A DNA stretch of 64,000 nt from Candidatus Thorarchaeota archaeon. Its GTDB lineage: Archaea > Asgardarchaeota > Thorarchaeia > Thorarchaeales > Thorarchaeaceae. Below, piece after piece: positions 1-27,254 of the stretch (within the stretch, counting starts at the first letter, position 1; each line of letters starts with the position of its first letter). Made by a program: the position numbers and the translations under genes. Where the stretch lies: positions 62,001 through 126,000 of the forward strand of contig DXJO01000004.1 of NCBI GenBank assembly GCA_019057475.1, read 5' to 3'. The notes under the pieces were generated by a model. That model searched no databases, was not told the origin of the DNA, and saw nothing but the letters and a program-made list of their open reading frames with translations.

Positions 1-363
1 TTCGCTATGGCAACAAGTCCGGAAATTGCTTTAATTCTGTGGGCACTGCCAATCTATCCATTGTCTTCAACCGCCGCATTTGCCTTGGGAGCGCGGATTT
101 CCGGAGAGCGTGAGCGTGGTCGCGCGATGTCGCTGGTAAATGGTGCGCAGAATCTCGGCATGGTGCTTGGCCCTCTCATCGGGGGATTCTTTGCCGAACT
201 GATGAATCGGGTTCAACCGGTTTCGTGGGCCAACGTGGCTTTCAATTTTCTCGCTCTCTTCTTGGCACTAGGCCTAGTGCGTCGATTAGGGTGGAGAACT
301 GAAAGAATCAGCCAGACTGACCAACACTTTGAAATAACGGAGCAGCCTCCTGCAAGCATATGA
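1..363 (+). CDS. MFS transporter, C-terminal fragment (starts upstream)
   Basis: The reading frame is open from the first base, so this is the 3' end of a gene that starts before the window. The visible ~120 residues contain an MFS-like cytoplasmic loop rich in Arg/Glu (GERERGRAMS), then a helix with NLGMVLGPLIGG, which resembles the conserved TM5 signature of drug/sugar MFS carriers, and a final hydrophobic helix. The tail is short and hydrophilic. The stop overlaps the next start in an ATGA (360-363), which implies translational coupling with the Ntn hydrolase. The substrate cannot be inferred. Confidence 0.8.
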   Translation, partial: FAMATSPEIALILWALPIYPLSSTAAFALGARISGERERGRAMSLVNGAQNLGMVLGPLIGGFFAELMNRVQPVSWANVAFNFLALFLALGLVRRLGWRTERISQTDQHFEITEQPPASI

Positions 364-1196
364 CTGGTGATTGCACAATCGGAGCCAAGATTGTTGGTGA
401 CAGATACCTCCTTTTCAAGAATCGAGACCTTGTCTATGAAGATTACAAAGACCAATGCATCTTTGAGGATGACATCTTCGCGGTGATTGGCATTAAGATT
501 GGTGCGGGTATTGACATGGGCGCGTCTATTGGTGTCAACCGATGGGGTCTTGCTGCCTGCAACTCAACCGTTCTAATTAATTCTGAAGAAGCGTATGACG
601 TTCTCATGGAGCGCTTGCTACGAAGAGCCAAGACCCTCGATGAGGCCTATGACATCGTGGTGAAATCCCTCGACAGTGGGGAAAGATATCAGTGGGGGAA
701 TTTTGTAATTGCGACGCCCGATGAGGTTGGAGCAATTGAAATCGGCGATGGCGTGTATGAAATCGAGCGTGGCTCAGATTCGATTGCTCGTACGAATCAT
801 CATCTCGTCCTCTCAACAAGGGACGCCCTGCTCAGAGCATCGCCTGAGGAGCGCGAAGCTGGAGGGCCTCTCAGCGCGAGTCAGAACAGAAGGCAGATTG
901 CAGCAAGGATGCTTGAATCCGCAAGGTCCACCCAAGATATAATCGAGATACTCAGTACACACGCCAAGGGAAAGGGCTATGATTCGATATGTCGGCACAG
1001 AACTGGCGTGCGGGGTGAAGACCCGTGGTTGGGTGAAACCTCCTATAGCTATATCATTGAGGTCGAAACGAAGCCGCTTGACTTCCGCATTCATGTTGCA
1101 CCTGGGAACCCTTGCAGTACTACGTACCACGAGGTGCAACTAGACTTCAAAACTTCCAGTGAAGCAAAAGGACAACTAATTCGCGATTTTCCATGA
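360..1196 (+). CDS. Ntn-hydrolase (C45/acyltransferase-like), Cys nucleophile
   Basis: 278 aa. Cys5-Thr6 follows a four-residue leader (MTGD), and an N-R-D triad lies at about 21-23, within the CT...(G/K)NRD pattern of Cys-type N-terminal nucleophile amidases (peptidase C45, isopenicillin-N acyltransferase-like, and related NRDE proteins). In these families the leader is removed autocatalytically and Cys becomes residue 1. The motifs GVNRWGLAACN and the NFVIATPDE strand also fit the fold. The likely activity is amide hydrolysis or acyl transfer on a small molecule; the substrate is unknown. The gene overlaps the MFS stop by 4 nt and is followed after 24 nt by a DHDPS-family gene, so the three may form one catabolic operon. 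Confidence 0.7.
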   Translation: MTGDCTIGAKIVGDRYLLFKNRDLVYEDYKDQCIFEDDIFAVIGIKIGAGIDMGASIGVNRWGLAACNSTVLINSEEAYDVLMERLLRRAKTLDEAYDIVVKSLDSGERYQWGNFVIATPDEVGAIEIGDGVYEIERGSDSIARTNHHLVLSTRDALLRASPEEREAGGPLSASQNRRQIAARMLESARSTQDIIEILSTHAKGKGYDSICRHRTGVRGEDPWLGETSYSYIIEVETKPLDFRIHVAPGNPCSTTYHEVQLDFKTSSEAKGQLIRDFP

Positions 1197-1220
1197 ACAC
1201 GTGGAACAGCTGGTGATCTG

Positions 1221-2120
1221 ATGGACCTCACACGACTTCAACAAGCACTGCAAGGAGTTGCCATAACGACAGCCACTCCTTTTTCTAAAGACCTCCGCTC
1301 AGTAGATCTAGATGCATTGACTGGAAACATGAAGTATCTATTGAGGGCGGACGGGAAGTTACTTGTTCCCTGTGGCAACACCGGAGAGTTCTACGCACTT
1401 ATGTTCGATGAATGGAAGCAGGTGTTGAGAACTACCCTTGATGTTGTTGCTGACAAGATGATAGTGACTGTGGGCATCGGTCACTCCATTGGCACTGCCC
1501 TCGAAATGATCCGGTACGCTGAGACTGAAGGGGCAGATGGAGTAATGGTGATGTACCCTCGGCATGTATTCAGCTCTGAGGAAGGCGTCCTGAACTACTA
1601 TCGAAGAATCATAGATGCGGCAAAGGAAGTTGGCGTAGTCCTGTACAAGAAGGGTCCGCTCTTGACGGATGAAGTCTTGAGTAAGTTACTAGAGAGCGGC
1701 AAAGTCGCAGGCGTGAAGTATGCTTACGGCCGAATAGTCAACTTCGCCAGGACGGTATACACACTTGGAGAAGATGTGATTTGGTCTTGCGGCGTCGCAG
1801 AGAGGTTCGCTCCATTCTATTGGCTCGCAGGCGCAAGAGGCCTCACGACTGGTCTTGGCAACTTTGCACCAAAGGTTTCACTTGGGATGTTCGATGCTCT
1901 GGTCAGGAGTGATTGGACTGAAGCAATGCGTATTCACAAGATGATAACTCCTCTTGAGGACTTGCGTGAGGGGCGAGGTAGTGCAAATAATGTTCCTGTG
2001 GTAAAGGCTGTGATGGACTCCTTGGGATTAGCTGGAGGAAACTGCCGACCTCCCATTCACAAGCTAACTGAGGCCGAAAGGCAGGCAGCGATTGATGCAG
2101 TTTCGGGATGGGGTCTCTAG
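1221..2120 (+). CDS. Dihydrodipicolinate synthase/N-acetylneuraminate lyase family protein
   Basis: 299 aa, the usual length for this class I aldolase TIM barrel. The pyruvate-binding loop is present as CGNTGEFYAL (51-60), the conserved Tyr is about 142 (VLYKKG), and the Schiff-base Lys is about 166 (AGVKYAYG). The GNTGEF form and the lack of lysine-pathway neighbours make a catabolic aldolase or dehydratase (2-keto acid substrates) more likely than DapA itself; that is inference. It is the third gene of the MFS/Ntn-hydrolase unit. It ends with TAG, 10 nt from the convergent amidohydrolase. Confidence 0.85.
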   Translation: MDLTRLQQALQGVAITTATPFSKDLRSVDLDALTGNMKYLLRADGKLLVPCGNTGEFYALMFDEWKQVLRTTLDVVADKMIVTVGIGHSIGTALEMIRYAETEGADGVMVMYPRHVFSSEEGVLNYYRRIIDAAKEVGVVLYKKGPLLTDEVLSKLLESGKVAGVKYAYGRIVNFARTVYTLGEDVIWSCGVAERFAPFYWLAGARGLTTGLGNFAPKVSLGMFDALVRSDWTEAMRIHKMITPLEDLREGRGSANNVPVVKAVMDSLGLAGGNCRPPIHKLTEAERQAAIDAVSGWGL

Positions 2121-2129
2121 ACCAAGCAC

Positions 2130-3320
2130 TTACTCCAGAAGTATCTTCTTGCCATTGATGAAGACCTGCAAAACTTCACTGTAGAAGTCGAATGGGTCAC
2201 CAGACCAAATCACTAAATCTGCATCTTTGCCCGGTTCAAGAGAGCCCACTCGGTCTTCAATCGCAAGGATCTCAGCAGGATTCAGAGTGACACACTTCAA
2301 GGCGTCTTCACGGCTCATGCCATGCTTAATCGCATACATTGGCAGGAGGGGGAAATAGTTCATTGGCGTGAGCGAGTCTGTCTGAAGCGCTACCTTCACA
2401 CCAGCCTTGTTGAGAATGACTGCTGTCTTGAAGCCACGCTCTTTTACTTCCGGTTTGGTGACCCAGAGCATGGTAGGCCCAATAACTGCTGGGACTCCCT
2501 TCCTGGCTATGTACTTGGCAATCTTGTGGCCTTCTGTGCAGTGGATGATAACGAGCCTTAGGTTGAACTCTTCTGCGATTCTAATGATGGTAGCTATGTC
2601 ATCAGCCCGATGAGAATGTGCATGAAGTGGTATCTGTCTCTTGAGAACCTTGGCGATGGTTTCTAGACCCAAGTCTCTCTTGGGCGGCTTAGGTATCGCT
2701 TCACCTTTCTCCTTCGCCTCTCTGGCTTTCGCACCGAAGGCTTTCCACTCGTCCAAGTAATTCTGACCATTTGTGAGTGTCTTTCTCAGAAGTGCGGCAA
2801 CACCCATCCGAGTCGAAGGCATTCTCTTGTTGTCTACTCCATGTACTCTTTTTGGGTTCTCTCCAAGTGCGATCTTGAGCGCAGATGGAGACATCACAAT
2901 CATCTCATCAACGACATTGCCGCCCATTGGCTTGATAACAAAAGCCTCACCAGATACCACGTTCCCTGACCCGGGACCGGTATTGATGCAGGTCACGCCT
3001 CCTCTTGTTATCTCCTTGAGTGACGCTTCGAACGGGTTGAAGCCGTCCATACCGCGCATCTCAGGAGTGATTGGAGTTGTCATCTCATTCCCGTCCATTC
3101 CAGCCCACCCAATCGAACCGTCGAACAATCCGTGGTGACAATGCGCGTCAATGAAGCCTGGCAATACATACTGTCCCTTGGCATTAATCTTCTTGGCCTT
3201 GGTGGGTATAGTTATCGATTTGCCAACCTTGACGATTTTGCCCTTGTCAAACAGAACAATGCCATTCTTTATCACGCCCTGTACGGGGCACATTATCGTT
3301 GCATTTGTAATCGCAATCAT
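2130..3320 (-). CDS. Amidohydrolase-superfamily metal-dependent hydrolase
   Basis: 396 aa. A short N-terminal beta-sandwich is followed by the metal motif PGFIDAHCH (His60, His62), then later His pairs (LHAHSH near 235, a following IIHC), and an Asp in ALQTDS, the barrel ligands of imidazolonepropionase/prolidase-like amidohydrolases. The C-terminal strand contains the classical GSLEPGKDADLVIWSGDPF signature. A soluble cytoplasmic enzyme cleaving an amide or imide C-N bond is expected; the substrate is not evident. It is convergent with the aldolase and is followed downstream (3' side of the minus strand) only by that gene. Confidence 0.85.
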   Translation of the reverse strand: MIAITNATIMCPVQGVIKNGIVLFDKGKIVKVGKSITIPTKAKKINAKGQYVLPGFIDAHCHHGLFDGSIGWAGMDGNEMTTPITPEMRGMDGFNPFEASLKEITRGGVTCINTGPGSGNVVSGEAFVIKPMGGNVVDEMIVMSPSALKIALGENPKRVHGVDNKRMPSTRMGVAALLRKTLTNGQNYLDEWKAFGAKAREAKEKGEAIPKPPKRDLGLETIAKVLKRQIPLHAHSHRADDIATIIRIAEEFNLRLVIIHCTEGHKIAKYIARKGVPAVIGPTMLWVTKPEVKERGFKTAVILNKAGVKVALQTDSLTPMNYFPLLPMYAIKHGMSREDALKCVTLNPAEILAIEDRVGSLEPGKDADLVIWSGDPFDFYSEVLQVFINGKKILLE

Positions 3321-4545: not shown

Positions 4546-5583
4546 GTGGTACGACCCGGTCCAGGCTGTGCTGTTTGGGAGATCACACTGAAGTGCAATC
4601 TGAATTGCATGCATTGCGGCTCCGCAGCTGGAAAAGCACGAAGCGATGAGCTTACCACAGATGAAGCACTGCAACTATGTGATGACCTGAAAGGCATCGG
4701 TTGTCAGGGCGTCGCTATGATGGGTGGCGAGCCACTACTTAGAAAAGATTGGCCATCTATCGCAGAGCGAGTACGCGAAGTAGGCATGGACCTGTCGATT
4801 ATCACTAACGGGTACAAAATCACTGAGAGCAAATTTCAGCGAATCTTCGATGTCAACCCCGAGTTGGTTACAGTAAGTATTGATGGCGGGCACGCCGCTA
4901 TTCATGATACGATACGCGGAGTTCCGGGCTCCTTCAAACAGGTAGTAGCAACTCTTCGCCGACTCGTGAAATCTGGCTTGCCAACTGGTGTCATCACCAC
5001 TGTCCACAAGATGAACCTAGGCGAGCTTCCCACTATCCGAAAATTCTTGCTGGGCACGGGCGTAGCGTGGCAGATACAGATGGCCACGCCCTACGGGCGT
5101 CTTACATATGATCATGTTCTCTCAAAGGAAGAATACTATTCACTGGCTCTATTCATTGCTGCCACCCGGAAGAGGTACTCCAAGAAGGAGCTCATGATTG
5201 CAGGTGCACATGACATGGGCTACTTCTCACGGGTTCTCCCCCCCTTGCAAGTGTATCCGTGGCAAGGCTGTCAAGCTGGCATCTCAACACTTGGGATTGA
5301 GAGCAATGGAAACATCCTTGGGTGTCTTGCATTGCCTCCGGAGTACGTGGAGGGCAACATTCGCGAACGGCCTCTGAAAGAGATCTGGAACGATGACGCT
5401 TTTTCCTCGTACACTCGCAGAGTTCGGCGGACTGACTTGGGCAGCGAGTGCGCCAGCTGTACATACAGTAAGATATGCAAGGGTGGCTGTTCTGCCGTTT
5501 CTCATTCGATGGCAGGTGGACTTCATCGAGATCCATATTGCCTTCGTCTTATTGAAGAGGGACTCAAGAAAAGCAACAGTTGA
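4546..5583 (+). CDS. Radical SAM/SPASM protein, candidate peptide maturase
   Basis: 345 aa, GTG start with a GGAGGG site at 4530-4535; an in-frame TGA at 4537 excludes a longer form. The radical SAM cluster motif CxxxCxxC is at Cys17/21/24, and the SAM-binding GGEP is at 60-63. The C-terminal SPASM domain is complete: Cys242, then G255-x4-C260, then C-x2-C-x5-C-x3-C at 302/305/311/315, and Cys332. This is the seven-cysteine layout of enzymes that carry two auxiliary Fe-S clusters (PqqE, MftC and sactisynthase types). It lies 44 bp upstream of four paralogous small proteins with a conserved C-terminal tail, then a methyltransferase. A role in modifying those tails is inference. Alternatives are a heme-biosynthesis (AhbC/D) type or an enzyme maturase. 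Confidence 0.85.
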   Translation: MVRPGPGCAVWEITLKCNLNCMHCGSAAGKARSDELTTDEALQLCDDLKGIGCQGVAMMGGEPLLRKDWPSIAERVREVGMDLSIITNGYKITESKFQRIFDVNPELVTVSIDGGHAAIHDTIRGVPGSFKQVVATLRRLVKSGLPTGVITTVHKMNLGELPTIRKFLLGTGVAWQIQMATPYGRLTYDHVLSKEEYYSLALFIAATRKRYSKKELMIAGAHDMGYFSRVLPPLQVYPWQGCQAGISTLGIESNGNILGCLALPPEYVEGNIRERPLKEIWNDDAFSSYTRRVRRTDLGSECASCTYSKICKGGCSAVSHSMAGGLHRDPYCLRLIEEGLKKSNS

Positions 5584-5627
5584 CATCTTGGGAAAAACAT
5601 TTCTTCTAAGGACTACTCTATTACATC

Positions 5628-5993
5628 ATGTCATTGATGGATATGATTCCAGTTGGGATTGAACTACTCCGACTTAGTGGGCGAGACGGCGTGTACGCTA
5701 TTCTATCACGGGTGTTCAAAGCTCAACCGACACCTCTGGCATATAGAAGAAGAATCAGGCCGCTCGGCGCTAGCGTAGGATTGTCAGAGGCTGAGGTTGA
5801 CGAGGTTATTAGCGGGAGTTCTAATGTTACGGTCCTTCCATCTTGGTTGAAGTGGGGTCTTGTTGCTTTCATAGTCGTTGTGTTGATTCTTAGTGCCATC
5901 GCGGTGACCGGGTCGTACGTGCCCTGGTATACGAATCCGACCTACGTTCCAGGTACCGACTATGCAAGCATCAGGCCTAAGGATTTCTTGTAG
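5628..5993 (+). CDS. Small membrane protein, paralogue 1 of 4 (candidate modified-peptide precursor)
   Basis: 121 aa. The N-terminal ~75 residues are predicted soluble and helical, with the family segment LGASVGLSEAEV (~47-58) and VTVLPSWLK before one TM helix (~78-98). A 23-residue tail follows, containing TYVPGTDY and SIRPKDFL at the very end. The tail matches paralogues 2-4 as T-Y-[VL]-P-G-T-x-Y-[AG]-[SA]-I-x-P-[KR]-D-F. No cysteine is present, so thioether chemistry would be impossible. It starts 44 bp after the radical SAM gene, with no clear ribosome site. The family was not recognised; the precursor role is inferred from the neighbours. Confidence 0.75.
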   Translation: MSLMDMIPVGIELLRLSGRDGVYAILSRVFKAQPTPLAYRRRIRPLGASVGLSEAEVDEVISGSSNVTVLPSWLKWGLVAFIVVVLILSAIAVTGSYVPWYTNPTYVPGTDYASIRPKDFL

Positions 5994-6113
5994 GAATGGC
6001 CTATTGAGTTCGTGCATATACCTAAAGATCAAGTGGCATTACGCTATTCAATGAATTATCTCATCCCTTTGCGTTGCGTAAGTTTCTTATTGGAGTTAGT
6101 CTAATGTTCATAC

Positions 6114-6446
6114 ATGCTTCTAGATAAACCTCCCACCGTCGGACTTGACATCCTCCGTACCCGGGGCGGAGAGCGTCTTTACCGATTGATTCTTCGAATT
6201 GCGGGGATTCCAACAGTCAGGGCAATGCCCTCGAAGGAATTAGTGCGTCTTGGAGCCAAGGTCGGGCTTGAAGCGTCGGAGGTTGAACAGGTTGCAGAGA
6301 GCAGACCTGATGTAAATGTGCTTCCCGATTGGTTGAAGGCAATTCTAGCCCTCATTGTGATTGTTGGCTCGTACTATCTGGGGCGAAGAATGACCTATCT
6401 CCCCGGGACGTTGTATGGAGCCATAGGTCCACGGGACTTCTTGTAG
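6114..6446 (+). CDS. Small membrane protein, paralogue 2 of 4 (candidate modified-peptide precursor)
   Basis: 110 aa, the shortest copy. The N-terminal helix region contains LGAKVGLEASEV (~44-55) and VNVLPDWLK (~72-80), both shared with paralogue 1. One TM segment (~81-93) is followed by GRR and the tail TYLPGTLYGAIGPRDFL, which ends the protein. No cysteine. The 3' flank resembles that of paralogue 1 at DNA level (a shared GTAGGAATGG around both stops and a GCATTACGC block 40-60 bp later), which points to duplication. A T-rich TATA-like stretch at about 6082-6091 lies ~25-30 nt ahead of the ATG, consistent with a leaderless transcript. Confidence 0.75.
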   Translation: MLLDKPPTVGLDILRTRGGERLYRLILRIAGIPTVRAMPSKELVRLGAKVGLEASEVEQVAESRPDVNVLPDWLKAILALIVIVGSYYLGRRMTYLPGTLYGAIGPRDFL

Positions 6447-6507
6447 GAATGGTCCAGAGGGTTCATCTGAATAACTTGGAAACTGGCTTGCATTACGCGT
6501 ATCAATA

Positions 6508-6517
6508 GCTTTTATGC
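6508..6517 (+). promoter_or_regulatory. TATA-like box of small-protein paralogue 3
   Basis: GCTTTTATGC is centred about 28 nt before the ATG at 6540, where an archaeal TATA box would place transcription start at or next to the initiation codon. There is no ribosome-binding site in the short interval, as expected for a leaderless mRNA. Confidence 0.45.
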
Positions 6518-6539
6518 TTCGGAGCCCTACCGTCTTCTC

Positions 6540-6923
6540 ATGACTTGGAGGGAATCCATTCTCTATGAACTGAACGCAACTCGCTTTCGACGGCTAGGCG
6601 GGCTTGGAGGGCTCAAAGATTGGGTGTGCGGTTTCTTAGCAACTTCAGTTCTTGATACAGAGAAAGCCGAGCAGTTAGGCGCTCAAGCTGGTCTGACTTC
6701 CGACGAGGTTGGAGCTGTTATGGACGCTCGAATGAGCAGAAAAGAGAGCATCCTGTTCAAGCTGACGGTAGTAGTTTTTACGCTCATAATTGTGGGAGCA
6801 GTTATTATGGCAGACCCATTAGGTGTTTTTGGCCAATACCCCGCCACCAACACCACGTACGTGCCGGGTACGCGCTATGGCAGCATCAGCCCGAAGGACT
6901 TCCAGTGGGGATTCGCACATTAA
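6540..6923 (+). CDS. Small membrane protein, paralogue 3 of 4 (candidate modified-peptide precursor)
   Basis: 127 aa. It starts MTWRESILYEL, closely matching the corrected start of paralogue 4. LGAQAGLTSDEV (~46-57) is the family segment. RKESILFKL introduces a TM helix (~72-92), followed by a ~35-residue tail with TTYVPGTRYGSISPKDF, and unlike the other copies six further residues (QWGFAH). The only cysteine is in the N-terminal region. A good TATA-like box (6508-6517) sits about 28 nt before the ATG, so the mRNA is probably leaderless. It pairs with paralogue 4 as a more recent duplicate; function unknown. Confidence 0.75.
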   Translation: MTWRESILYELNATRFRRLGGLGGLKDWVCGFLATSVLDTEKAEQLGAQAGLTSDEVGAVMDARMSRKESILFKLTVVVFTLIIVGAVIMADPLGVFGQYPATNTTYVPGTRYGSISPKDFQWGFAH

Positions 6924-7000
6924 CACTTGTCGATTATTCAGGGCCAGTCGCTCTACGCCAACCGATAATCTTAACGGCTTTGACCCCATACTATACAACT

Positions 7001-7369
7001 ATGAATTGGATGGAACTCTGTCTGTATCAACTGGATGTGGTTTCTATCCGAGGGAGCCGCCGCTTCCTTGGGCCTATGGAATGGCTTCGCAGTTTCTTGA
7101 CAAAACCAGTCCTTGGGTCAGAGAAGATCGAGCTGCTCGGTGCTCAAGCAGGTCTCGAACCCAATGAGGCTCGAGACGCAGTAAGCATGCCCGCAAGCAA
7201 GGGTGAGAGCATAGTGTTCAAGCTGGTTGTGGGGATTGTGCTTTTCTCAATCTTGATTTCGATTGTGATTATGAGCCCAATAGGCGCCTACATCAATCAG
7301 GAGCTCTTCAACACAACTTACCTGCCAGGGACACTCTATGGAAGCATCAGTCCGAAAGACTTCAGGTAA
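7001..7369 (+). CDS. Small membrane protein, paralogue 4 of 4 (candidate modified-peptide precursor)
   Basis: 122 aa from the ATG at 7001. The frame is open upstream to 6905, but alignment to paralogue 3 (MNWMELCLYQL versus MTWRESILYEL) fixes the start here. LGAQAGLEPNEA (~47-58), KGESIVFKL, and a TM helix (~72-92) are followed by the tail TTYLPGTLYGSISPKDFR ending the protein. The stop is 5 nt ahead of the methyltransferase ATG, so these two are very likely cotranscribed. As in the other copies, the tail carries two conserved Tyr, a Pro-Gly-Thr turn, and a terminal Pro-Lys-Asp-Phe, and has no cysteine. Confidence 0.75.
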   Translation: MNWMELCLYQLDVVSIRGSRRFLGPMEWLRSFLTKPVLGSEKIELLGAQAGLEPNEARDAVSMPASKGESIVFKLVVGIVLFSILISIVIMSPIGAYINQELFNTTYLPGTLYGSISPKDFR

Positions 7370-7374
7370 GCACG

Positions 7375-8688
7375 ATGCGAATCCACGTGGGCTGCGGCCC
7401 GGTCTACAAGAAGGGCTACGTCAACATTGACGTCTTTGATCCTACTGTTGCAGATCGTATCATGTCTGCATATCATCTGGAATTTCCCGATGACTCAGCA
7501 AGTCTTGTGGAGTGTATGCACACTCTCGAACACCTGGGTGCAGCGAAGAGCATCTATGCATTGGCTGAATTCTTTCGCGTATTGAAACCTGGGGGTGTCT
7601 TACTTCTGGAAATCCCAGACATAGAAGCAACCTTTGCAAACTTTCTCAAGCACGGGGAAAAACAAAGGAAGCTCCTAATGAACTGGATCTACGGCTTAGA
7701 TTCGCCAGGGATGGGCCATCGCTACTGCTTCCCCCGGGAACTGCTCAGTCGCATGTTGAAAGAGTCTGGGTTCAAAGATATCCTGTTGAAGCGGCTCGCG
7801 ACCAAATCTATCCAACCATCATTGCGGGTCAAGTGCAGGAAACCTGAATCGTATATTGCCCATCAGATTATTTCACGTGTACGACGTTCTCTGGTAGACA
7901 ATGGCCTAGTTGATCTTGATGACCAAGTCAGTGCACTTGACCGCGAAACTCTCATCCAATCTCTTGCTTCACTGACACATCAGCTGTGTGCCAAATGGGA
8001 TGAACTGGCGCTAAGGCAGATGACCATAGAATCAGCGGTGCAGAATCCGCGAATGGGGTTGGCTTTCATCGAGCAACTTGAGAGCCAGGTTTCTGAGTCG
8101 GCTTCTCGGGTGAAGAGGTATGGGCGGATTCTCGAAACACTGGGGTCTCTTGACTTCCCTGCAGTTTTGTTGCATCTACTTATGCAGGTTCCTCCACAGG
8201 TAGGAACTCAGAACCAGACGTACCTGACTGTCCGAAATATGGGGGTTGCCACTGTCAAGAAGCTTCTTGCAGGAAAGGAAGAACAGGCAGTCTCGAAGGA
8301 GCTGCGACGAACACGTGCGGCGTTGTCTGGCGATAAAATTCTGAGCCACTTCTCTGAAGAAGGAGTGAAGCGCCTTGCAGAGCAGAGTTTCGCTCACGGT
8401 GCAAAAGCTTTTGCTAATCATGAACTAACTGAGGCCGTTCGATTGTTCGAAGAGGCGTTCAGTCTTAATCGTGATGATCTTCTTATTACATGGAACCTAG
8501 CGCGTCTGAAGGCGATCGAAGGAAAAGGAGATACGTCAAAGAAGTACTATGAAATGACTTCCTTGCTTGCCCAACGCTACAAGCAACCCTTCCGTCGAAG
8601 GATGCTCGAGCGGCTTCGCTCTGAAATCAGTCTTGCATCCGAGGGCCAGATGGATGGCCTAGCAGCACCAGTCTACCAGGCCTTCTAG
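7375..8688 (+). CDS. SAM-dependent methyltransferase with helical/TPR-like C-terminus
   Basis: 437 aa. The N-terminal ~150 residues are a class I (type 11) methyltransferase: motif I HVGCG (4-8), GYVNID acidic strand (~14-19), HTLEHL (~49-54), and FFRVLKPGGVLLLEIP (~66-81). A long helical linker follows, and residues ~340-400 form a TPR-like pair (AKAFANHELTEAVRLFEEA...LLITWNLARLKAIEGK), suggesting a protein or peptide substrate. It begins 5 nt after paralogue 4, so it probably belongs to the radical SAM cluster as a second modifying enzyme; that is inference. Related orphan methyltransferases also act on glycans or lipids. Confidence 0.8.
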   Translation: MRIHVGCGPVYKKGYVNIDVFDPTVADRIMSAYHLEFPDDSASLVECMHTLEHLGAAKSIYALAEFFRVLKPGGVLLLEIPDIEATFANFLKHGEKQRKLLMNWIYGLDSPGMGHRYCFPRELLSRMLKESGFKDILLKRLATKSIQPSLRVKCRKPESYIAHQIISRVRRSLVDNGLVDLDDQVSALDRETLIQSLASLTHQLCAKWDELALRQMTIESAVQNPRMGLAFIEQLESQVSESASRVKRYGRILETLGSLDFPAVLLHLLMQVPPQVGTQNQTYLTVRNMGVATVKKLLAGKEEQAVSKELRRTRAALSGDKILSHFSEEGVKRLAEQSFAHGAKAFANHELTEAVRLFEEAFSLNRDDLLITWNLARLKAIEGKGDTSKKYYEMTSLLAQRYKQPFRRRMLERLRSEISLASEGQMDGLAAPVYQAF

Positions 8689-13198: not shown

Positions 13199-14182
13199 CT
13201 AGAGATAACAGGCTACGAATCTACCGGGCTTGACTTCAACCAGTTCCGGCTCCTCGGCTTTGCACTGAGGACCGAATTCCTGACAGCGAGGCTTGAAGCG
13301 GCATCCCGGAGGAAGGTCAATGGGAGTTGGGGTTTCTCCAGGCAGCATTATCCTATGCCTCTTATGTGTGGGGTCTGGTATCGGGATGTTTGAAACCAAC
13401 GCCTTTGTGTAAGGATGAAGCGGATCCATGATGACCTCCTCCATTGGGCCCGTTTCCACAAGGCGTCCAAGATACATTATGACGATGTAATCGGCGATGT
13501 ATCGTGCTTGAGCCAAATCGTGAGTGATGAAGATATAGGTGAGGCCATGTTCCTCCTGCAGGTCTTCCATTAGGTTCATGATCTCGGTTCGAATGCTTGC
13601 ATCAAGCATGGACACTGGTTCATCAGCGATTATGAGCTTCGGCTCCAAGATGAGTGAACGTGCGATTGCCACTCTCTGAAGCTGACCTCCGCTGAGCTCA
13701 TGTGTGTAGCGCCTTGCAAAATCCTTTGCCGGCATGAGCCTTACATTCTCGAGAGCAGCAAGAACGCGACGGCGCAGTTCGGCTTCATTTTCTTCGATTT
13801 TGTGAATGGTGAGCCCCTCACCGACAAGTGTTTCAACGGTAAGCCGGGGGTCTAGGACCTCGAAGGGGTTCTGGAAGATGATCTGCATTTTCAGTCTCAA
13901 CAGGCGGAGTTCCTCTCGCGTCAAATCGGATATGTTGACTCCTTCGAAGTATGCACTTCCTGACGTGGGTTCAATAAGACGAAGGATAGTCCTAGCTAGT
14001 GTTGTTTTACCGCAGCCAGACTCTCCTGCAATGGCGATTGAGCCGCCTCTCGGGACATCAAAGCTCACATCGTCTACAGCCTTTACGTATTTCTTTTCCT
14101 GCATGAAAGAAAGGAGTCCTGAACGCACAGGAAACCATTTCTTTAGGTTCCGAACTTCAAGGATGGGCTCTACTGATGTCAT
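13199..14182 (-). CDS. Oligopeptide ABC transporter ATP-binding protein, OppF type (operon 1)
   Basis: 327 aa. Walker A GESGCGKTT (~53-61), Q-loop IFQNPFEVLDPR, signature LSGGQLQR (~165), Walker B LIIADEP (~190) and H-loop ITHD are intact. The C-terminal oligopeptide/dipeptide extension carries Pro-Gly-Cys-Arg-Phe and three more cysteines (PRCQEFGPQC...ACYL). It powers peptide import together with the OppD-type subunit, whose stop overlaps this start by 4 nt (ATGA). It is the last gene of the five-gene minus-strand operon. Confidence 0.93.
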   Translation of the reverse strand: MTSVEPILEVRNLKKWFPVRSGLLSFMQEKKYVKAVDDVSFDVPRGGSIAIAGESGCGKTTLARTILRLIEPTSGSAYFEGVNISDLTREELRLLRLKMQIIFQNPFEVLDPRLTVETLVGEGLTIHKIEENEAELRRRVLAALENVRLMPAKDFARRYTHELSGGQLQRVAIARSLILEPKLIIADEPVSMLDASIRTEIMNLMEDLQEEHGLTYIFITHDLAQARYIADYIVIMYLGRLVETGPMEEVIMDPLHPYTKALVSNIPIPDPTHKRHRIMLPGETPTPIDLPPGCRFKPRCQEFGPQCKAEEPELVEVKPGRFVACYL

Positions 14183-15156
14183 TCAATCACCTCGAAAGAC
14201 AGTTCTCCAGCGAAGTGACACTTTGCGTAATGTCCCTGCTTGATTTCTCTATACATAGGTTCTTTCTCTTTGCAGATATCCTGAGCGTAGGGACACCTTG
14301 GATGGAACCTGCAGCCAGCGGGAGGATTCAGTAGGTTTGGAGGAGTACCTGGAATGAACTGCAGGCGCTTCTTTTCCCCGATTACACTCGGGAATGCACC
14401 AATCAACTTGGATGTGTACGGATGCAGATTGTGCTTGAACACTGCCTTCGCACTGCCCACTTCAACTAGGTTGCCTGCGTACATTATGCCTACGTTGTGA
14501 CAGTTCTCTGCAACAACTGACAGGTCGTGAGTGATGAACAGGACTGCAAGCTCGTACTTTTCCTGCAGCTTCCTGAGCAAGTCCAGTATCTTGTTCTGGA
14601 CTATCACGTCAAGGGCTGTCACCGGCTCGTCAGCAATGACGAGCATTGGATCACACGCAAGAGACTGGGCAATGATGGCACGTTGGAGCATTCCGCCACT
14701 GAACTCATGAGGGTAGTCTCTTTGCCTCTTCGGTTCTAGACCCACCTCATCGAAAAGATCGGAAACAGTTGCTCTTGCCTCTTCCTTGCTGACACCTTCC
14801 TTCTCACGAATCACCTCAACAATCTGGGCGCCTATGCGAAGCACAGGATTGAACGCATTCATGGCGTACTGGAAAATTATGGATGCTTTTCTCCATCTTA
14901 AATACCTTATCTCCTCTTCACTGAGAGCGGTAATTTCCTCATCTCCAAGCCTTATCGTGCCCTGTACTATCCGACCGTTCTCAGGGAGCAGACGCATGAT
15001 GCTGTATGCAGTAGTTGTCTTGCCGCAGCCTGACTCACCAGCGAGCCCAAGAGTTTCCTTCGCCTCTATCTTGAAGGACACACCATCTACGGCCTTGACT
15101 GACTCCTTGCCGAGGTAGTAGTAGGTCTTGAGATTCTCAACTTCAAGAACTGCCAT
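14179..15156 (-). CDS. Oligopeptide ABC transporter ATP-binding protein, OppD type (operon 1)
   Basis: 325 aa using the ATG at 15156, which has a GGAGGCG site 9 nt upstream and begins MAVLEVENLKTYY. The frame is open 12 codons further to 15192, but that would overlap the permease gene. Walker A GESGCGKTTTA, Q-loop, signature FSGGMLQRA, Walker B LVIADEPVTALD, and the C-terminal PAGCRFHPRCPYAQDIC extension are present. It starts 1 nt after the permease stop and overlaps the OppF start by 4 nt, so it is tightly coupled. It energises peptide uptake. Confidence 0.93.
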   Translation of the reverse strand: MAVLEVENLKTYYYLGKESVKAVDGVSFKIEAKETLGLAGESGCGKTTTAYSIMRLLPENGRIVQGTIRLGDEEITALSEEEIRYLRWRKASIIFQYAMNAFNPVLRIGAQIVEVIREKEGVSKEEARATVSDLFDEVGLEPKRQRDYPHEFSGGMLQRAIIAQSLACDPMLVIADEPVTALDVIVQNKILDLLRKLQEKYELAVLFITHDLSVVAENCHNVGIMYAGNLVEVGSAKAVFKHNLHPYTSKLIGAFPSVIGEKKRLQFIPGTPPNLLNPPAGCRFHPRCPYAQDICKEKEPMYREIKQGHYAKCHFAGELSFEVIE

Positions 15157-15157
15157 T

Positions 15158-16705
15158 TCAGCGTCGCCTCCCTCGTAAGCGTGGATTGACAACTTTGTCC
15201 GCTGCGTGACTCACGAACACGAAACCTAACGAGGTCAGTAGGATCAGCAATCCCGGTGGAAGAATCCACCACCATGCCATATTGAGAAGTGCCGCGTTCT
15301 TGTTTGCCCAATGAAGCATGATACCCCAGCTGGGTGGCCCGTGAATATCCACGAAACCAAGGAACGCGATACCTGCCTCACCAAGAATAGCACTAACAAC
15401 ACCAAGAATCATGTTTGCCAAGATAAGTGGCAAAGTGTTTGGAAGAATGTGTTTGATGAGGATGTATCTATCCGAAGCACCTAATGCATGGGCCGCCTCT
15501 GTAAGAGGTCTCTCCCTGAGAGATAGCGCCTCACTTCGTACCATTCTCGCTGTTCCTGTCCAACCAAGAATTGCAATGACAAAAATGATGTTGTGAAGAC
15601 CCTGTCCAAACATAATCAGAAATACTAACATCAGTGGGAGTGTTGGAAGTGAAAGGAATACATCAGTTATTCGCATTAGAATAGTATCAACAGATCCGCC
15701 ATAATAGCCAGATATCAAACCCACTGTAGTACCTAGACCCACGGCGACAATACTAGCTGTGAATCCAACTATAAGTGAAATTTGAGTTCCATAAACTAGG
15801 CGACTCAAGATATCCTGACCGATGTGATTAGTTCCCAGCGGAAATTCTGCTGAAGGTGGTAGAAGCAGATTCTCTCCAATTCCAGCTGTTAATTCGCCCC
15901 AGTTTCGTATCAACCCTGCCCATTCAAGCACTGGTGCAATTAATGCTAGACCAACGATTGCGCCAATAATGCCCAGACCGACAAGCCCCATCCGTTCATG
16001 AACGAACTCGCTCCAGAATGATTCAATGCTCCTGCGATAATTCCAAATCGATTCGATTATTTTGGGAAGGATCATGTATGCTGGAATTAGGATGAATGTT
16101 GCGATAAGTGAGATTCCACCCAGTGTATTGTTTAGTGGCACCGAAAGCACTGCTGGCAAAATAGTAGTTCCAGTTGCTGCTTCGGAGAGGAATCCTTCTA
16201 ACACAATCCAGATTCCTACACTGCCAACTGCGATTCCACGATAAAGATCAATCTGTCGATTCGACCAATGGGCGAGTAGTTTTGGATTCCATAGAAAGAG
16301 CACGAATGCGAAAATGAATCCTATTCCTATACCAAATGCAAAGAAGAAGAGTATTGTAAGTCCAACTAGTAATAATGGTTGTAGAATTTTTACCAGACGA
16401 TAATTATAGAACTGCTTGTAATAAAGTGCGAGGAACATTGTTCCTCCGAACAATGCCCAACCGCTGATTCGATATGATGTTGTTATGAACAAACTGTAAT
16501 CTTCAGACAACCCTGTTACTTCGAAGGACAACCATCCAACTAAGATGTTTGTCACTGAATCTACAATGAATATGACTAAGAGAGTAAGTAAGATGAACGA
16601 TCCTAGTGAAGCCAATTTTACATGCCAGGGTTTCTTCTTACTTGCTGTTTCGAATATTTCATTGTCTGAATCCGTTGAGATATCTTGGTGTGTCATTTTC
16701 TGCAT
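15158..16705 (-). CDS. Oligopeptide ABC transporter permease, OppC type, with long N-terminal membrane extension
   Basis: 515 aa against ~290-300 for typical OppC. The last ~280 residues are the canonical permease: PLGTNHIGQDILSRLVYG entry motif, then the EAA-loop region EAAHALGASDRYILIKHILPNTLP near 415-440. The first ~230 residues add about six hydrophobic helices of no recognised family. The second operon's OppC (24803) also has an extension, so this is a lineage feature rather than a fusion artefact. The 5' two thirds are AT-rich compared with the ATPase genes. Starts 6 nt after OppB. Confidence 0.9.
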   Translation of the reverse strand: MQKMTHQDISTDSDNEIFETASKKKPWHVKLASLGSFILLTLLVIFIVDSVTNILVGWLSFEVTGLSEDYSLFITTSYRISGWALFGGTMFLALYYKQFYNYRLVKILQPLLLVGLTILFFFAFGIGIGFIFAFVLFLWNPKLLAHWSNRQIDLYRGIAVGSVGIWIVLEGFLSEAATGTTILPAVLSVPLNNTLGGISLIATFILIPAYMILPKIIESIWNYRRSIESFWSEFVHERMGLVGLGIIGAIVGLALIAPVLEWAGLIRNWGELTAGIGENLLLPPSAEFPLGTNHIGQDILSRLVYGTQISLIVGFTASIVAVGLGTTVGLISGYYGGSVDTILMRITDVFLSLPTLPLMLVFLIMFGQGLHNIIFVIAILGWTGTARMVRSEALSLRERPLTEAAHALGASDRYILIKHILPNTLPLILANMILGVVSAILGEAGIAFLGFVDIHGPPSWGIMLHWANKNAALLNMAWWWILPPGLLILLTSLGFVFVSHAADKVVNPRLRGRRR

Positions 16706-16711
16706 TCCTCC

Positions 16712-17731
16712 TTAATATCTAATTCTTGGATCCAGGTACAAGTACAACACATCCGCTAGAAAATTCGCAAAAACTGTGATACTTGCTAAGAATAGAAATA
16801 TCCCCTGTAAAACCGGATAATCTACTGATAATACAGAATGATACGTCAACAATCCTAATCCTGACCAACTAAAAACGAATTCAGTAATCATAGCGCCACT
16901 GATAAGGTACGGTAGGTTGACTGCAACAACGCTGACCATCGGTAACATTGCATTTCTCATAGCATGTCCAAAGAGTATTGTGCGTTCTTTGAGCCCTTTT
17001 GCTCTAGCTGCAAGAATATAATCTTGTGTGAACACATCTAGTACCGAATCTCTCATTATCAGGTAGAAACCTCCAATGAACGATAATGTTAGAACTATCC
17101 ATGGCCCTGTCATATGCCACAAGTAATCACGCCAATAATCAAGGAAATTCACATGCACATAGCCTCTTGTGATTGTTCCTGCAAGAGGAATAATTCCTAA
17201 TTGAAATCCGAAAAACATCAGCATTAGTAGACCAATCCAAAATACGGGCATTGCGTATGCGACAAGAAAAGTTACAGTGGATCCAGTGTCAATTAAGGTG
17301 TCGCGTCGAGCTGCTGCAATAACACCGACTACTATTCCGATGATTATTGCTGCGGCCATTGAAGCTCCCATCAGAATGAATGTGTTTGCAAATCTGAAAT
17401 CAAAAATCGTTTTCCAAACTGGCTCTCCGAAATGTGAAAAGGAATAGCCCATGTCTCCTTGAAAGAGATTAACCAGATAGATGAAATATTGTTCAATGAG
17501 ACTCTTGTCTAACCCAAATCGTTCAACGATTGCTTGTCTAAGTTCTGGAGGGATGCCTTCACCTAGAAGTGCCTGACGAGGATCTCCTGGCATAACTCTG
17601 AAAATGATAAAATTCAGTGTTATGATCATAAACCACACTATGATTGTTTGTACGAAACGCTGAGCAATATACCGCCGGGTTCCAACACTAGTTCTTGCTG
17701 ACACAGCACCACTCTCATTCAATATATGCAA
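16712..17731 (-). CDS. Oligopeptide ABC transporter permease, OppB type (operon 1)
   Basis: 339 aa. A basic N-terminus and first TM helix are followed by FRVMPGDPRQALL, the OppB/DppB hallmark, then the extracytoplasmic segment, and five more TM helices. The EAA loop is ILAARAKGLKERTILFGHAMRNAMLP (about 240-265; read as two adjoining parts), and the C-terminus ends in YLDPRIRY, the family ending. It pairs with the OppC-type permease to form the channel. A terminator-like hairpin lies between it and the binding-protein gene upstream. Confidence 0.93.
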   Translation of the reverse strand: MHILNESGAVSARTSVGTRRYIAQRFVQTIIVWFMIITLNFIIFRVMPGDPRQALLGEGIPPELRQAIVERFGLDKSLIEQYFIYLVNLFQGDMGYSFSHFGEPVWKTIFDFRFANTFILMGASMAAAIIIGIVVGVIAAARRDTLIDTGSTVTFLVAYAMPVFWIGLLMLMFFGFQLGIIPLAGTITRGYVHVNFLDYWRDYLWHMTGPWIVLTLSFIGGFYLIMRDSVLDVFTQDYILAARAKGLKERTILFGHAMRNAMLPMVSVVAVNLPYLISGAMITEFVFSWSGLGLLTYHSVLSVDYPVLQGIFLFLASITVFANFLADVLYLYLDPRIRY

Positions 17732-17767
17732 TTATGTACTACTTAAAAGACCGCGGAATTACGTGGG

Positions 17768-17802
17768 CAAAAAGAAAGGAGTAGGGACCTAAGCTAGGCC
17801 CC
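17768..17802 (-). terminator. Terminator-like hairpin between SBP and OppB of operon 1
   Basis: On the minus strand GGGGCCTA (17802-17795) pairs with TAGGTCCC (17791-17784) around a 3-nt loop, eight pairs with one G-U, and is followed by TCCTTTCTTTTT. It lies 16 nt after the binding-protein stop and before OppB, a position that would favour excess binding protein over permease. Confidence 0.6.
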
Positions 17803-17817
17803 TTAAACCAGTTTGAA

Positions 17818-19548
17818 TTATTTCTTCTTCATGAAGAGGTAGGTCACAATTACACCTACAATCAGCGCACCAGCACCAATTCCAATCACGAGAACCCAGT
17901 CAACGCCTGTTGGAGGTTCAGTAACTAAACCAGAGTCGTACATAAAGACCATAGCTCGTGGGTTGAATGATGTAAATGGTCCACCGGGTGGTGTAGTGAA
18001 GTTGACCCACTCAGCTCTCATTGCGTGAGTGTCATCAGACAAGAAGAGTGGTATGAATGGCTTGTGCTCAAGGCAGTCAAGTTGAACTTGCCTTGCTGCA
18101 GCAGCTATTGTCGCGGGTGTAGCGCCCACGAAGTCATCCAAATGTGTGTCTACTGCAGTATCACTGAGACCATAACAGTTGTCACCCCAGTCAACAATGT
18201 TGTCTGAGTGCATTCTCCACCAGACATGGTCTGGTACAGCACTGTAACCGTGACTCATCTCATAAGCGATGAATGCACGTGGTTCTGCATAAATGCCTTC
18301 ATACATTGGACCATCATCCATAACTTTGACGTTACAGTCGATACCTATTTTGGCTAGTTGAAGCTTGATACCTGTTCCAGTTGCTACGCTGATGTCATCC
18401 CATGAGAGGACCCAGAGGTCAAAATCTAGATCATCAAAGAAGCCATCCTCGTCTCCGTCTGTGTATGTATCATTCAAAAGGTCGATTGCTGCATCAATGT
18501 CCTGAGTTGGGAATGCGCCATCATTATCAAAGTATGCTGGGAAGAACTCGGCTGGAATGCAACTGTTAGTTGGTGTTCCAAATCCAAGTCTGCCAATGTT
18601 GATAAGTTCTTGACGATCAATTCCTAGTGCAATTGCATCTCTAACATCAGGATCATCGAATGGTGCAACTGTTGTATTAAATCCTAGAACATAATCCCAT
18701 TGGGATACAACACCTGTAACTAGTTGTAGTTCGGGTGCATTTAGGATTGAGTTTACATAAGCACCAAAGACTTCGTAGCGTTCTGTGTCAGCTTCACCAC
18801 TTCTCATTGCGAGAATACGAGCATCCTGACCGAGTACCACATCAATTCGAAGGCTTTCGATATTCGGTAGTTGACCCACATATGGATTATCAGGACCCCA
18901 CCAGTCGTCGTTTCTTTCCATCTGAATAAATTCACTGGGGGTTCGTGAAACGAACTTGAATGGACCTGAACCAATGTGAGCAGTTACGTTTGTAGCATCA
19001 TCCCACACAGCTGCATCGGCAGCAACACCTTCTCGAATGTGTTTTGGCAGAAGATGCATTGAACCTAAGTTATCAACAGCAAATGTAAATGGTTCATCAA
19101 ATACAACTGTAACAACCTGACCGCTAACGGTAATTGTTGTTGTATGCTGTAGTAGTGACCAATAGTTTGCATCTGCCGGTGCGGCCTTGTGATGGTCAAA
19201 AGTGAATTTGACATCTGCAGGTGTTAACGCAGTACCATCATGCCAAGTAGCACCCTCTCTTATGGTGAAGGTGACACTCATTCCATCTGCGGACACTGTC
19301 CACGCCTCGGCTAACCAAGGTATCATTTCTAGGTCGTCATCGTATGAGATAAGTGTATCATAAATCAGCATGTCGTACTAGGTTGAGCGTGCGCTACGGG
19401 CAAATATTGGGTTTTGTTCACCAATATCTGAAGGATATGCCATGACGAATTCCATGACATCATCCTGAGCCGCAACGGGTGCGCCCATCACTGGAAAGAA
19501 CAAGAGAATAGCTAGAATGATACAGCTTGCTCTCTGAGTGTTTTTCAT
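17818..19548 (-). pseudogene. Peptide ABC transporter substrate-binding protein (family 5) with an in-frame TAG at codon 57
   Basis: The natural start is the ATG at 19548, giving MKNTQRASCIILAILL..., a clear signal peptide ending near AAQDD. Reading continues through NPIFARSARST to a TAG at 19380-19378, then resumes in the same frame with YDMLIYDTLISYDDDLEMIP, a typical family-5 N-lobe. Including the stop position, the product would be ~576 aa and ends with a TM anchor (LVIGIGAGALIVGVIVTYLF) and KKK. TGG to TAG (Trp) is the simplest change. TAG is an ordinary stop elsewhere here, so this may be a recent null mutation, sequence error, or readthrough. The downstream frame alone (ATG 19371) lacks a signal peptide. 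Confidence 0.8.
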
Positions 19549-19678
19549 ACAATCTTTCCTCCTATAACAACTAGAAGTAGAGTACTCTAGTGAACTTAAT
19601 CATTTGCATCGTATGGTTTAAAGCTTTTGAAAATAGTGATATCGCATGAAGAAAAAGCTGAATGGAAAGATTCGCTAA

Positions 19679-20473
19679 TCAACAGAAATCATGTTTCAAT
19701 TTCTTCTGATACAAATCATCCTTTTCACAGATACGTGATAGCGCGATACCGTTCTGAAGTGCCTTATCTAGAGAACCTTCACCTATGTTCTCTAGAAATA
19801 GGAACCTTTCCTTTCCTGATTCTATGTTTTGGAAAATCGCCATTATTGTTTGAATATATACGCGTTCCTCAATCTCAAAACTGTCAACTCGATATTCTAG
19901 TGGGCAATTTGTCACAAGTGATGCAGCTACTGAAAAACTGTGAATTGATTTTCGCTTCAGAGCTAGATCATTCTCTCTGTGCCGAGATTTTGGTGATCTT
20001 GGAATGAAAAGTGGAAATGCCGCACCTGATCCCAATTGAATCCCTCTAAGTTCCTCATCCATTCCAAGGAGTGTTTTCTTAGATTCTTGGATTTTGTTCA
20101 CAAATGCATCAATGAAATTTCGAAGATTATCATCATCTGAGTCTAATGCATTAGTTGAGATAATCGATTTGTCAATGCTCTGAATTCGTTTTTCAGTATG
20201 CATCGGTCTCCACAATAGAAACCAATCGTCTGAAATAATGGCAAGAGGTGCAAGTGTTTCATCTACTAGTGAGCGAAATGTTTCCTTCTGGTTTGTCTTT
20301 ATTCTTGATGCACCAAATCGCACGAACCTGAAAGGTCTCCAAATTGGTTGAGATACTGTTACAGATTCCAATTCTTGTTTACTAAGGATTCCTTTACGTT
20401 TGGCCCTCTTTCGAAAGAAGGATTCAATTTCGCCATCATCGAATTCTTCTATTTCAAAAACTTTCATCTTCAC
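19679..20473 (-). CDS. Hypothetical protein, 264 aa, AT-rich
   Basis: No family recognised. The product starts MKMKVFEIEEFDDGEIESFF, is mixed alpha/beta with many charged residues and no TM helix or signal peptide. A central acidic run (SDDDNLRNF, ~112-120) and a C-terminal segment of helices are visible. Codon use is AT-rich like the adjacent binding-protein gene but unlike the M20 gene. It is oriented like the opp operon, upstream of it, with ~130 bp between, so it is probably a separate unit. It may have arrived with the AT-rich block. Confidence 0.5.
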   Translation of the reverse strand: MKMKVFEIEEFDDGEIESFFRKRAKRKGILSKQELESVTVSQPIWRPFRFVRFGASRIKTNQKETFRSLVDETLAPLAIISDDWFLLWRPMHTEKRIQSIDKSIISTNALDSDDDNLRNFIDAFVNKIQESKKTLLGMDEELRGIQLGSGAAFPLFIPRSPKSRHRENDLALKRKSIHSFSVAASLVTNCPLEYRVDSFEIEERVYIQTIMAIFQNIESGKERFLFLENIGEGSLDKALQNGIALSRICEKDDLYQKKLKHDFC

Positions 20474-20578
20474 TCCTCTAGAAACGTCGAATTAAGCACA
20501 AACTAGAACCAAATAAGAAGTTCGACTGATTCTGCATCAGAGGGAGGATAGTTCACAAGGAACTTCTTCATACAATTT

Positions 20579-20872
20579 ATGACTTCCATGATTGACAAAC
20601 TTGAGAAGCACATAGAGGAGAATCTTGAGAATGCTTTGAACGATTTGAAAGAGTTCGTTCGTATTCCTTCTATTGCAACTAAGAATCAAGGCATAGTGGA
20701 GGCTGCTGAATTTCTAAAAAGCCATCTTAGTAGTGCGGGAGTGAAAGTGAAAATTCACAATACATCAGGTTCACCTGTTGTTACAGGCCATCTTGATGTT
20801 GGCGCAAAACGAGCTCCTGAGTTTATTTAAAAGAACGCCGATTTTCTGAAGGCTGATGGAGGGATATCGGCG
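20579..20872 (+). pseudogene. Truncated M20 peptidase copy
   Basis: Residues 1-78 align with the start of the intact M20 gene at 21402 (IEENLENALNDLKEFVRIPS and GSPVVT...DVGAKR). The sequence then jumps directly to a copy of a later part (APEF, then KNADFLKADGGI, matching PEFTKKNTEFLKADGGI). So about 110 residues, including the first metal ligands, are deleted. A K-to-stop TAA (20828-20830) interrupts the remnant. It is a decayed tandem duplicate with no expected activity. Confidence 0.8.
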
Positions 20873-20890
20873 GACTATGTCTGTGCTTTC

Positions 20891-21216
20891 ATGAATAGAG
20901 GCGTTGCACACGACCGTCCTGCGAAGGAACAAAAGCGCGGACCAGGATGGGCATCTCTAAGAGAAAAAGGGTGGACTGTACTGCCTGTTTTGCACATAGA
21001 CGAAGCCTCGCTTGTCTTTGGCGGACGGAAGGAGGATGCTGATCCGCGACTTGGACTGAAATACTTTGGGCCATTCCACACGGACGAGAGAAACCAACGC
21101 CACAGATGCGTATCGGAATCATAGCAATGGGCAGTACACATGCCTTAGCAAGAGCGTTTCTGGAGATGCTAGGGATTGAGCAGAAGTCACATAGTAGTAC
21201 GACGAATTCTCTTTGA
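20891..21216 (+). pseudogene. Possible Argonaute/Piwi-like N-terminal remnant, frameshifted
   Basis: Directly after the M20 remnant, and in its frame, are residues reading HIDEASLVFGG...DPRLGLKYFGPF. I recall this style (E-x-x-L-x-F-G-x-G then D-P-R-x-G-L-x-x-x-G-P) from the beginning of some prokaryotic Argonaute proteins. After a +1 shift near 21090 the other frame continues TPQMRIGIIAMGSTHALARAF, which would follow in such proteins. It stops at 21214. No PIWI domain or partner gene remains. The assignment rests on motif memory only. The rest of this gene-poor stretch (21217-21401) shows nothing recognisable. Confidence 0.25.
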
Positions 21217-21401
21217 TGAATTCTATTCGACGTATCTCTTTGATAGAGTCCGGGTTAGAGTTTCTTTGTTGAAGATGGGTCCGTCGAGAGCAATCATCAT
21301 GTTGGCGTCCTTATGGTGGGAAGATGTCCTTAATGTATATGGTTCGGGTATTCGAAGATAAGCAGTTCGTTTCGACGTTCCGCACATATCGGTCCTCCTA
21401 G

Positions 21402-22793: not shown

Positions 22794-22805
22794 TTGCTCG
22801 ACGAT

Positions 22806-23783: not shown

Positions 23784-23785
23784 CC

Positions 23786-24796: not shown

Positions 24797-24802
24797 TCAG
24801 CA

Positions 24803-26068: not shown

Positions 26069-26080
26069 CGATATCTCTCC

Positions 26081-27091: not shown

Positions 27092-27203
27092 CCAACACCA
27101 CAACAGCACGTTTCTTTTCTCTACAGCATACTCACACAAACTGAGTCTTAAGGCATGCGGATTAAGCGAAATCCCAATTCAGATCGACTAGTTCCTTTGA
27201 ACG

Positions 27204-27254
27204 AAGAAAAAAGAGAGTTCGGTGCCGCTAAACCGATTAGGATTCAGCAGCACC
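27204..27254 (-). terminator. Terminator-like hairpin between SBP and OppB of operon 2
   Basis: On the minus strand GGTGCTGCT (27254-27246) pairs with AGCGGCACC (27229-27221), nine pairs including one G-U, around a 16-nt loop. It is followed by CTCTCTTTTTTCTTC. It lies 18 nt after the binding-protein stop, the same relative position as the hairpin in operon 1. Confidence 0.6.

Follow-up and report, generated by a model that had tools for sequence, protein, structure and literature searches.

What does a radical S-adenosylmethionine (SAM) enzyme of the peptide-modifying type do beside a row of small membrane proteins in an Asgard archaeon? The question is raised by a locus in a 64,000-nucleotide stretch of a Candidatus Thorarchaeota genome (assembly GCA_019057475.1, contig DXJO01000004.1, positions 62,001 to 126,000; hereafter the window), in which six genes lie in tandem on the + strand: a radical SAM enzyme with a SPASM domain, four small proteins and a methyltransferase. 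The first-pass annotation had proposed that the locus makes ribosomally synthesized and post-translationally modified peptides (RiPPs), with the small proteins as substrates of an enzyme akin to PqqE, MftC and the sactisynthases. The substrate part of this interpretation stands, and the proposed kinship does not. Our favoured reading, to which we give a probability of roughly one half, is a RiPP-like protein-tailoring system, in which a sister family of the known spliceases would alter a core tyrosine in the tail of each small protein and the tail would then be displayed.

Coupling of the enzyme and the small proteins

The gene set is real and conserved, and its enzyme and small proteins are coupled. 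A sample of 228 Asgard genomes was searched for the enzyme and, using a profile of the single-transmembrane (TM) proteins, for the small proteins. Enzyme orthologues are present in 58 genomes from nine families, and the profile matches 44 genomes, 42 of which also encode the enzyme (both, 42; small protein only, 2; enzyme only, 16; Fisher p 4.6e-30). In the two exceptions (G189 and G195), the small-protein gene lies less than 300 bases from the end of its contig, and it is on this side that the enzyme would be expected. The 16 enzyme-only genomes belong mostly to lineages f18, f20, f26 and f27, which have neighbouring multi-TM proteins of about 140-185 amino acids (aa) instead; these carry an N-terminal element similar to the leader described below, and many of them end in x-Y-G-V-[YF]. 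No precursor was identified in two f20 genomes (G096 and G106) and in f25 (G131), and the enzyme of G008 and G197 is either a fragment or situated at a contig end. In 39 of 40 Asgard loci the SPASM gene has a methyltransferase homologue next to it; the remaining locus lies at a contig edge.

The same coupling is seen among 293 Thermoplasmatota genomes, where the enzyme is found in all 15 genomes that bear precursors, and a precursor in none of the 269 that lack the enzyme (p 2.4e-19, a count in which ten genomes were first found through the enzyme). In neither group do the small proteins occur widely without the SPASM gene, the outcome that had been named as telling against the initial proposal. 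In some Thermoplasmatota genomes, precursors are also located away from the enzyme. In one genome (G040; L077:5600-7131), the SPASM orthologue is split by an apparent frameshift and its precursors and methyltransferase are intact, which may reflect an assembly error or decay.

Further enzyme orthologues were found in Elusimicrobia, Nitrospiraceae, Syntrophus, Smithellaceae, Geobacter, Margulisbacteria and Melainabacteria-type bacteria, those of Thermoplasmatota reaching 53% identity. The system spans Lokiarchaeota, Hodarchaeota, Helarchaeota, Thermoplasmatota, Elusimicrobia and Desulfobacterota-type bacteria, and is confined neither to the window locus nor to Asgard archaea. An Asgard-only origin is ruled out by the Thermoplasmatota and bacterial orthologues, which are 43-53% identical.

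Leader and core of the small proteins

The four paralogues of the window, whose lengths of 121, 110, 127 and 122 aa agree with the initial description, have two islands in common, namely an N-terminal LGAxxGLxxxE and a 16-residue C-terminal TYxPGTxYxxIxPxDF. Their 20 invariant columns are concentrated in the tail (10 columns; p=1.6e-7) and in a 13-residue N-terminal element (6 columns), leaving 4 in the other 92 positions. All four genes are kept in a sister species with dN/dS values of 0.14-0.66, i.e. below 1; between the two species the leader and tail are nearly unchanged, and the linker and TM segment vary. The small proteins match no Pfam family, and a search of their own genome with the tail pattern returned this locus only, with three of the four copies, the pattern having been a little too stringent.

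When 20 Asgard single-TM precursors are aligned, the invariant columns are G47, G51, L52, Y106, G109, Y112 and F120. Among the relatives, the leader reads GxxxGL..E[IV] and the core Y..G.xY[G/S/A][TS][IV]...DF. We compiled 98 cores, anchored by a pattern with the Tyr and a D/N/E-F/L/I pair. The motif x-Y is present in all of them, Tyr being the anchor of the search, and the residue after this Tyr is G in 46%, S in 40%, A in 7% and Y or F in 7%. Conservation reaches 78% for Y-6 and 81% for G-3, which are unselected columns, and 88% for D+7 and 90% for F+8, which are partly selected by the pattern.

The full core is carried by soluble precursors, single-TM proteins, lipoproteins and Kunitz-inhibitor proteins; the multi-TM proteins end in a reduced core, xYG[VI][YF], without DF and mostly without the upstream Tyr. 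In Thermoplasmatota most of the partners are soluble peptides 52-80 aa long, several per locus, with the leader IGKxLGLxxxDI and the core YxxGxxYGT[IV]SIxDF, and at one locus (L164) two precursors carry two and three tandem cores. Elusimicrobia precursors are lipoprotein-like, with the leader followed by LxACF and then CGPYPGYPCGTRYYTVSxxDF. The relatives in Nitrospiraceae, Syntrophus, Smithella and Geobacter consist of the leader, a signal or TM segment, a Kunitz_BPTI domain (E down to 5.6e-15) and a core of the form SKYG[AG]V..RDF or TRYFTVSLRDF. Because leader and core are shared by otherwise unrelated carriers, with tandem cores, the small proteins resemble RiPP precursors, and, judged by sequence, the locus has the general arrangement of a RiPP system, a leader-and-core precursor linked to a modifying enzyme. 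Together with the co-occurrence and the multiple cores, this strongly supports the initial suggestion that the small proteins are the enzyme's substrates.

Two side observations concern these relatives. A conserved protein of about 461 aa without Pfam match adjoins the methyltransferase or the precursors in Thermoplasmatota loci (L173:5190-6575, L170:4654-6039, L167:1592-2977 and others) and is a candidate third enzyme. Another radical SAM gene, coding for about 455 aa, is found near Kunitz-core loci (L186:6871-8453; L187:1953-3314); the L186 copy overlaps the beginning of a 72-aa peptide with the core-like YGARDYTVVAASDF.

Kinship of the enzyme and the proposed reaction

The enzyme matches the Pfam models Radical_SAM (4.5e-26) and SPASM (2.4e-10). 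The CxxxCxxC motif and the full seven-cysteine SPASM pattern noticed at the outset (C242, C260, C302, C305, C311, C315 and C332) are invariant or nearly so across 36 orthologues. Among NCBIfam models it scores highest with TIGR04103 (nif11-class peptide radical SAM maturase 3; 228 bits), which we take to correspond to IPR026482, and with TIGR03913 (GDL-motif peptide maturase; 212 bits). Divergent orthologues score 164-248 bits and 178-220 bits, respectively, all far under the cut-offs, and for four of them no model besides these two passes 1e-42. The first-pass assignment to PqqE, MftC and the sactisynthases is rejected on weaker matches: the equivalog models give 141 bits for MftC (cut-off 265) and 96 bits for PqqE (cut-off 381). 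In addition, 12 positions, including W175-Q176-x-Q178, are common to the enzyme and to TIGR04103/TIGR03913 members, and most of them are missing in MftC, PqqE, TIGR04053, TIGR04347 and two Asgard paralogues. A tree groups the enzyme with TIGR04103/TIGR03913 when rooted on these same outgroups, a grouping that depends on the rooting, with some outgroup branches long and PlpX left out. The AlphaFold2 model (mean confidence, pLDDT, 93.9) has the generic Foldseek neighbours PqqE, SkfB and SuiB. The family thus appears to be a sister of the spliceotide/GDL group, its nearest known kind, lying outside both member families by the curated cut-offs. Since its nearest kin are not PqqE, MftC or the sactisynthases, a different chemistry is to be expected.

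Three known systems invite comparison. In the spliceotides (PlpX/PlpY with Nif11-type precursors), tyramine is cut out at Xaa-Tyr-Gly by PlpX, which is a SPASM enzyme belonging to IPR026482 (PMC11002830; PMC10533398). The reaction leaves a ketoamide, a protease-inhibitor group, and the products of splicing are protease inhibitors (PMC10373908; PMC11117315); such splicing is described as widespread among bacteria, and the resulting beta-residues inhibit proteases potently (PMC10373908). The archaeal system resembles the spliceotides in having the closest SPASM radical SAM sequence, the HCGS, R32 and WQxQ signature, x-Y-G in part of its cores and several precursors per cluster; the neighbour of a Nostoc TIGR04103 enzyme is a Nif11 precursor ending SIALYGLPPELF. 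It differs in its leader, which has no Nif11 match, in the membrane anchoring of the Asgard substrates, in the frequent S or A in place of G, in its methyltransferase partner and in being archaeal. The GDL-motif/DUF1843 system (TIGR03913, rad_SAM_trio) is the best or second-best model across the family and likewise has several small paralogues beside the enzyme, with LYG, PYG, LYA or MYA in the neighbouring peptides; however, its motif lies near the N terminus of soluble peptides of 55-65 aa. PqqE, MftC and SkfB/SuiB maturases share the radical SAM/SPASM fold and neighbouring precursors, but match less well in sequence, have other core motifs and, for PqqE and MftC, work with PqqD/MftB-type RiPP recognition element (RRE) partners, none of which is found here. 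A GDL-type locus of Aureibacter (L148:3159-5929) parallels the archaeal layout: arranged in tandem, it has three DUF1843 peptides, a radical SAM enzyme and a methyltransferase of the class I SAM type, the last not being visibly related to the archaeal one.

On the favoured reading, the precursor would be translated in the cytosol, where the SPASM enzyme would bind the leader element, possibly with help from the methyltransferase's helical domain (a separate RRE protein was not found), and radical attack would follow at the conserved core tyrosine in x-Y-[G/S/A]. By analogy with PlpX, we put tyramine excision at this tyrosine at about even odds; it would leave a ketoamide at the residue before the tyrosine. 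The modified protein would be inserted in the membrane with its tail outside, an orientation suggested by the bacterial lipoprotein and signal-peptide forms, and the methyltransferase may add or support a second step. The likely role of such a tail would be that of a displayed covalent protease inhibitor, to which both the known activity of ketoamides and the fusions to Kunitz domains point. More tentatively, archaea including Asgard may make ketoamide (beta-amino-acid) proteins by a new splicease family, with membrane display turning these proteins into covalent protease inhibitors, and in some bacteria this warhead may be joined to a Kunitz inhibitor.

Several observations weigh against this reading. 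The window enzyme falls well below the cut-offs of TIGR04103 (725 bits) and TIGR03913 (591.75 bits), and departs from both at family-wide positions (GGEP for GGEA, TNG for TGG). A strict XYG rule fails, since the residue after Tyr is Ser in about 40% of cores, and in Elusimicrobia and Geobacter it is Tyr or Phe. The second conserved Tyr (-6), the Gly at -3 and the DF pair are not explained by tyramine excision. No extra small gene for a PlpY/RRE partner lies between the core genes, and no locus protein has a Pfam RRE match. Finally, charge counts in the archaeal small proteins are ambiguous on membrane topology.

The alternative that survives best, if somewhat unlikely, keeps the same substrates and enzyme and supposes another radical chemistry on the core tyrosine before methylation: a crosslink (from Tyr to Asp +7 or to Tyr -6, or else a cyclophane), an oxidation or an epimerisation. 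SPASM enzymes catalyse many reactions, and the structural neighbours are PqqE, SkfB and SuiB; the conservation of Y-6, G-3, D+7 and F+8 exceeds the needs of an XYG site, and the cores of Elusimicrobia contain YY/YF and two Cys at fixed positions. Yet the multi-TM precursors keep only xYG[VI][YF] and pair with the same enzyme family, and the closest enzymes are those of XYG peptides. A good deal less probable is that the tails, once modified, are cleaved off and secreted as free peptides with a role as signal, toxin or inhibitor, which departs from the favoured reading in the final product only. The short soluble Thermoplasmatota precursors do resemble ordinary RiPP precursors, and peptide transporters and peptidases occur elsewhere in the window, but neither a protease nor an exporter gene is conserved next to the locus, and the existence of lipoprotein and Kunitz carriers points to an intact protein that is tethered or secreted. 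That the enzyme acts on another protein or small molecule, with the small proteins as scaffold or partner subunits, is very improbable: the enzyme does score, less well, against heme-pathway SPASM enzymes, and membrane anchoring is unusual for RiPP precursors, but tandem cores and multiple paralogues per locus would be hard to explain, and unrelated carriers share the leader and core only.

The system has a single defined tyrosine and a compact core resembling a tag, which is found on many carriers in nature, and the Kunitz fusions amount to a direct functional prediction. If splicing does occur, it would place a backbone-editing reaction in Asgard archaea, the relatives of eukaryotes, and provide phylogenetically diverse enzymes for protein labelling. 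We found no paper on DUF1843 chemistry or on Asgard radical-SAM RiPPs of this kind, and in the open literature no account of tyramine-excision splicing or of this gene set in archaea; a 2022 survey (doi 10.1016/j.chempr.2022.09.017) lay outside this scope, and an earlier mention is possible.

Gene layout, methyltransferase and neighbouring genes

The order and spacing first read from the sequence are correct, with 44 nt between the enzyme and precursor 1 and 5 nt between precursor 4 and the methyltransferase.

Table 1. Features of the locus, in window coordinates.
Feature	Position	Strand	Remarks
Radical SAM/SPASM peptide maturase, apparent sister family to TIGR04103/TIGR03913	4546..5583	+	GTG start, 345 aa
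CNLNCMHC, radical SAM [4Fe-4S] motif	4594..4617	+	(nearly) invariant, 36 orthologues
SPASM region, seven cysteines C242-C332	5269..5541	+	orthologue alignments
Putative precursor 1, 121 aa, single TM	5628..5993	+	family adjoins SPASM gene across Asgard
Leader element, precursor 1: PLGASVGLSEAEV	5760..5798	+	G47, G51, L52 invariant, 20 Asgard single-TM precursors
Core tail, precursor 1: TYVPGTDYASIRPKDF	5940..5987	+	Y106, G109, Y112, F120 invariant
Putative precursor 2, 110 aa	6114..6446	+	
Leader element, precursor 2	6246..6284	+	Asgard precursor alignment
Core tail, precursor 2: TYLPGTLYGAIGPRDF	6393..6440	+	Asgard precursor alignment
Putative precursor 3, 127 aa	6540..6923	+	
Leader element, precursor 3	6672..6710	+	Asgard precursor alignment
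Core tail, precursor 3: TYVPGTRYGSISPKDF	6855..6902	+	Asgard precursor alignment
Putative precursor 4, 122 aa	7001..7369	+	start is an internal ATG of the 6905 open reading frame
Leader element, precursor 4	7133..7171	+	Asgard precursor alignment
Core tail, precursor 4: TYLPGTLYGSISPKDF	7316..7363	+	Asgard precursor alignment
Class I SAM methyltransferase (Methyltransf_23/11) with all-helical C-terminal domain of ~270 aa	7375..8688	+	437 aa, Pfam 1.3e-10

The tail of the methyltransferase had been called TPR-like, for which Pfam gives no significant match (E 0.08-0.14); it is predicted to form an all-helical domain of about 270 residues (AlphaFold2 pLDDT 93.1), and Foldseek with the methyltransferase returns only generic class I enzymes. 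The aspartate of the DF pair is not supported as the methyl target: the multi-TM systems have the methyltransferase without DF, and the Syntrophus-type systems have DF without the methyltransferase.

Genes for an AAT-type N-terminal nucleophile (Ntn) hydrolase, a dihydrodipicolinate synthase (DHDPS)-family protein and an amidohydrolase precede the SPASM gene (window 360-3320; L072:1850-4914), an order seen in two Thorarchaeota genera that is possibly mere local synteny. PmbA/TldD-family metallopeptidase genes lie side by side at window 36553-39362; some RiPPs are processed by relatives, though the family is a common one in archaea. Two peptide/oligopeptide ATP-binding cassette (ABC) transporter operons, each with a solute-binding protein, occupy window 13199-28964 and begin about 5 kb and 14 kb from the RiPP-like locus.

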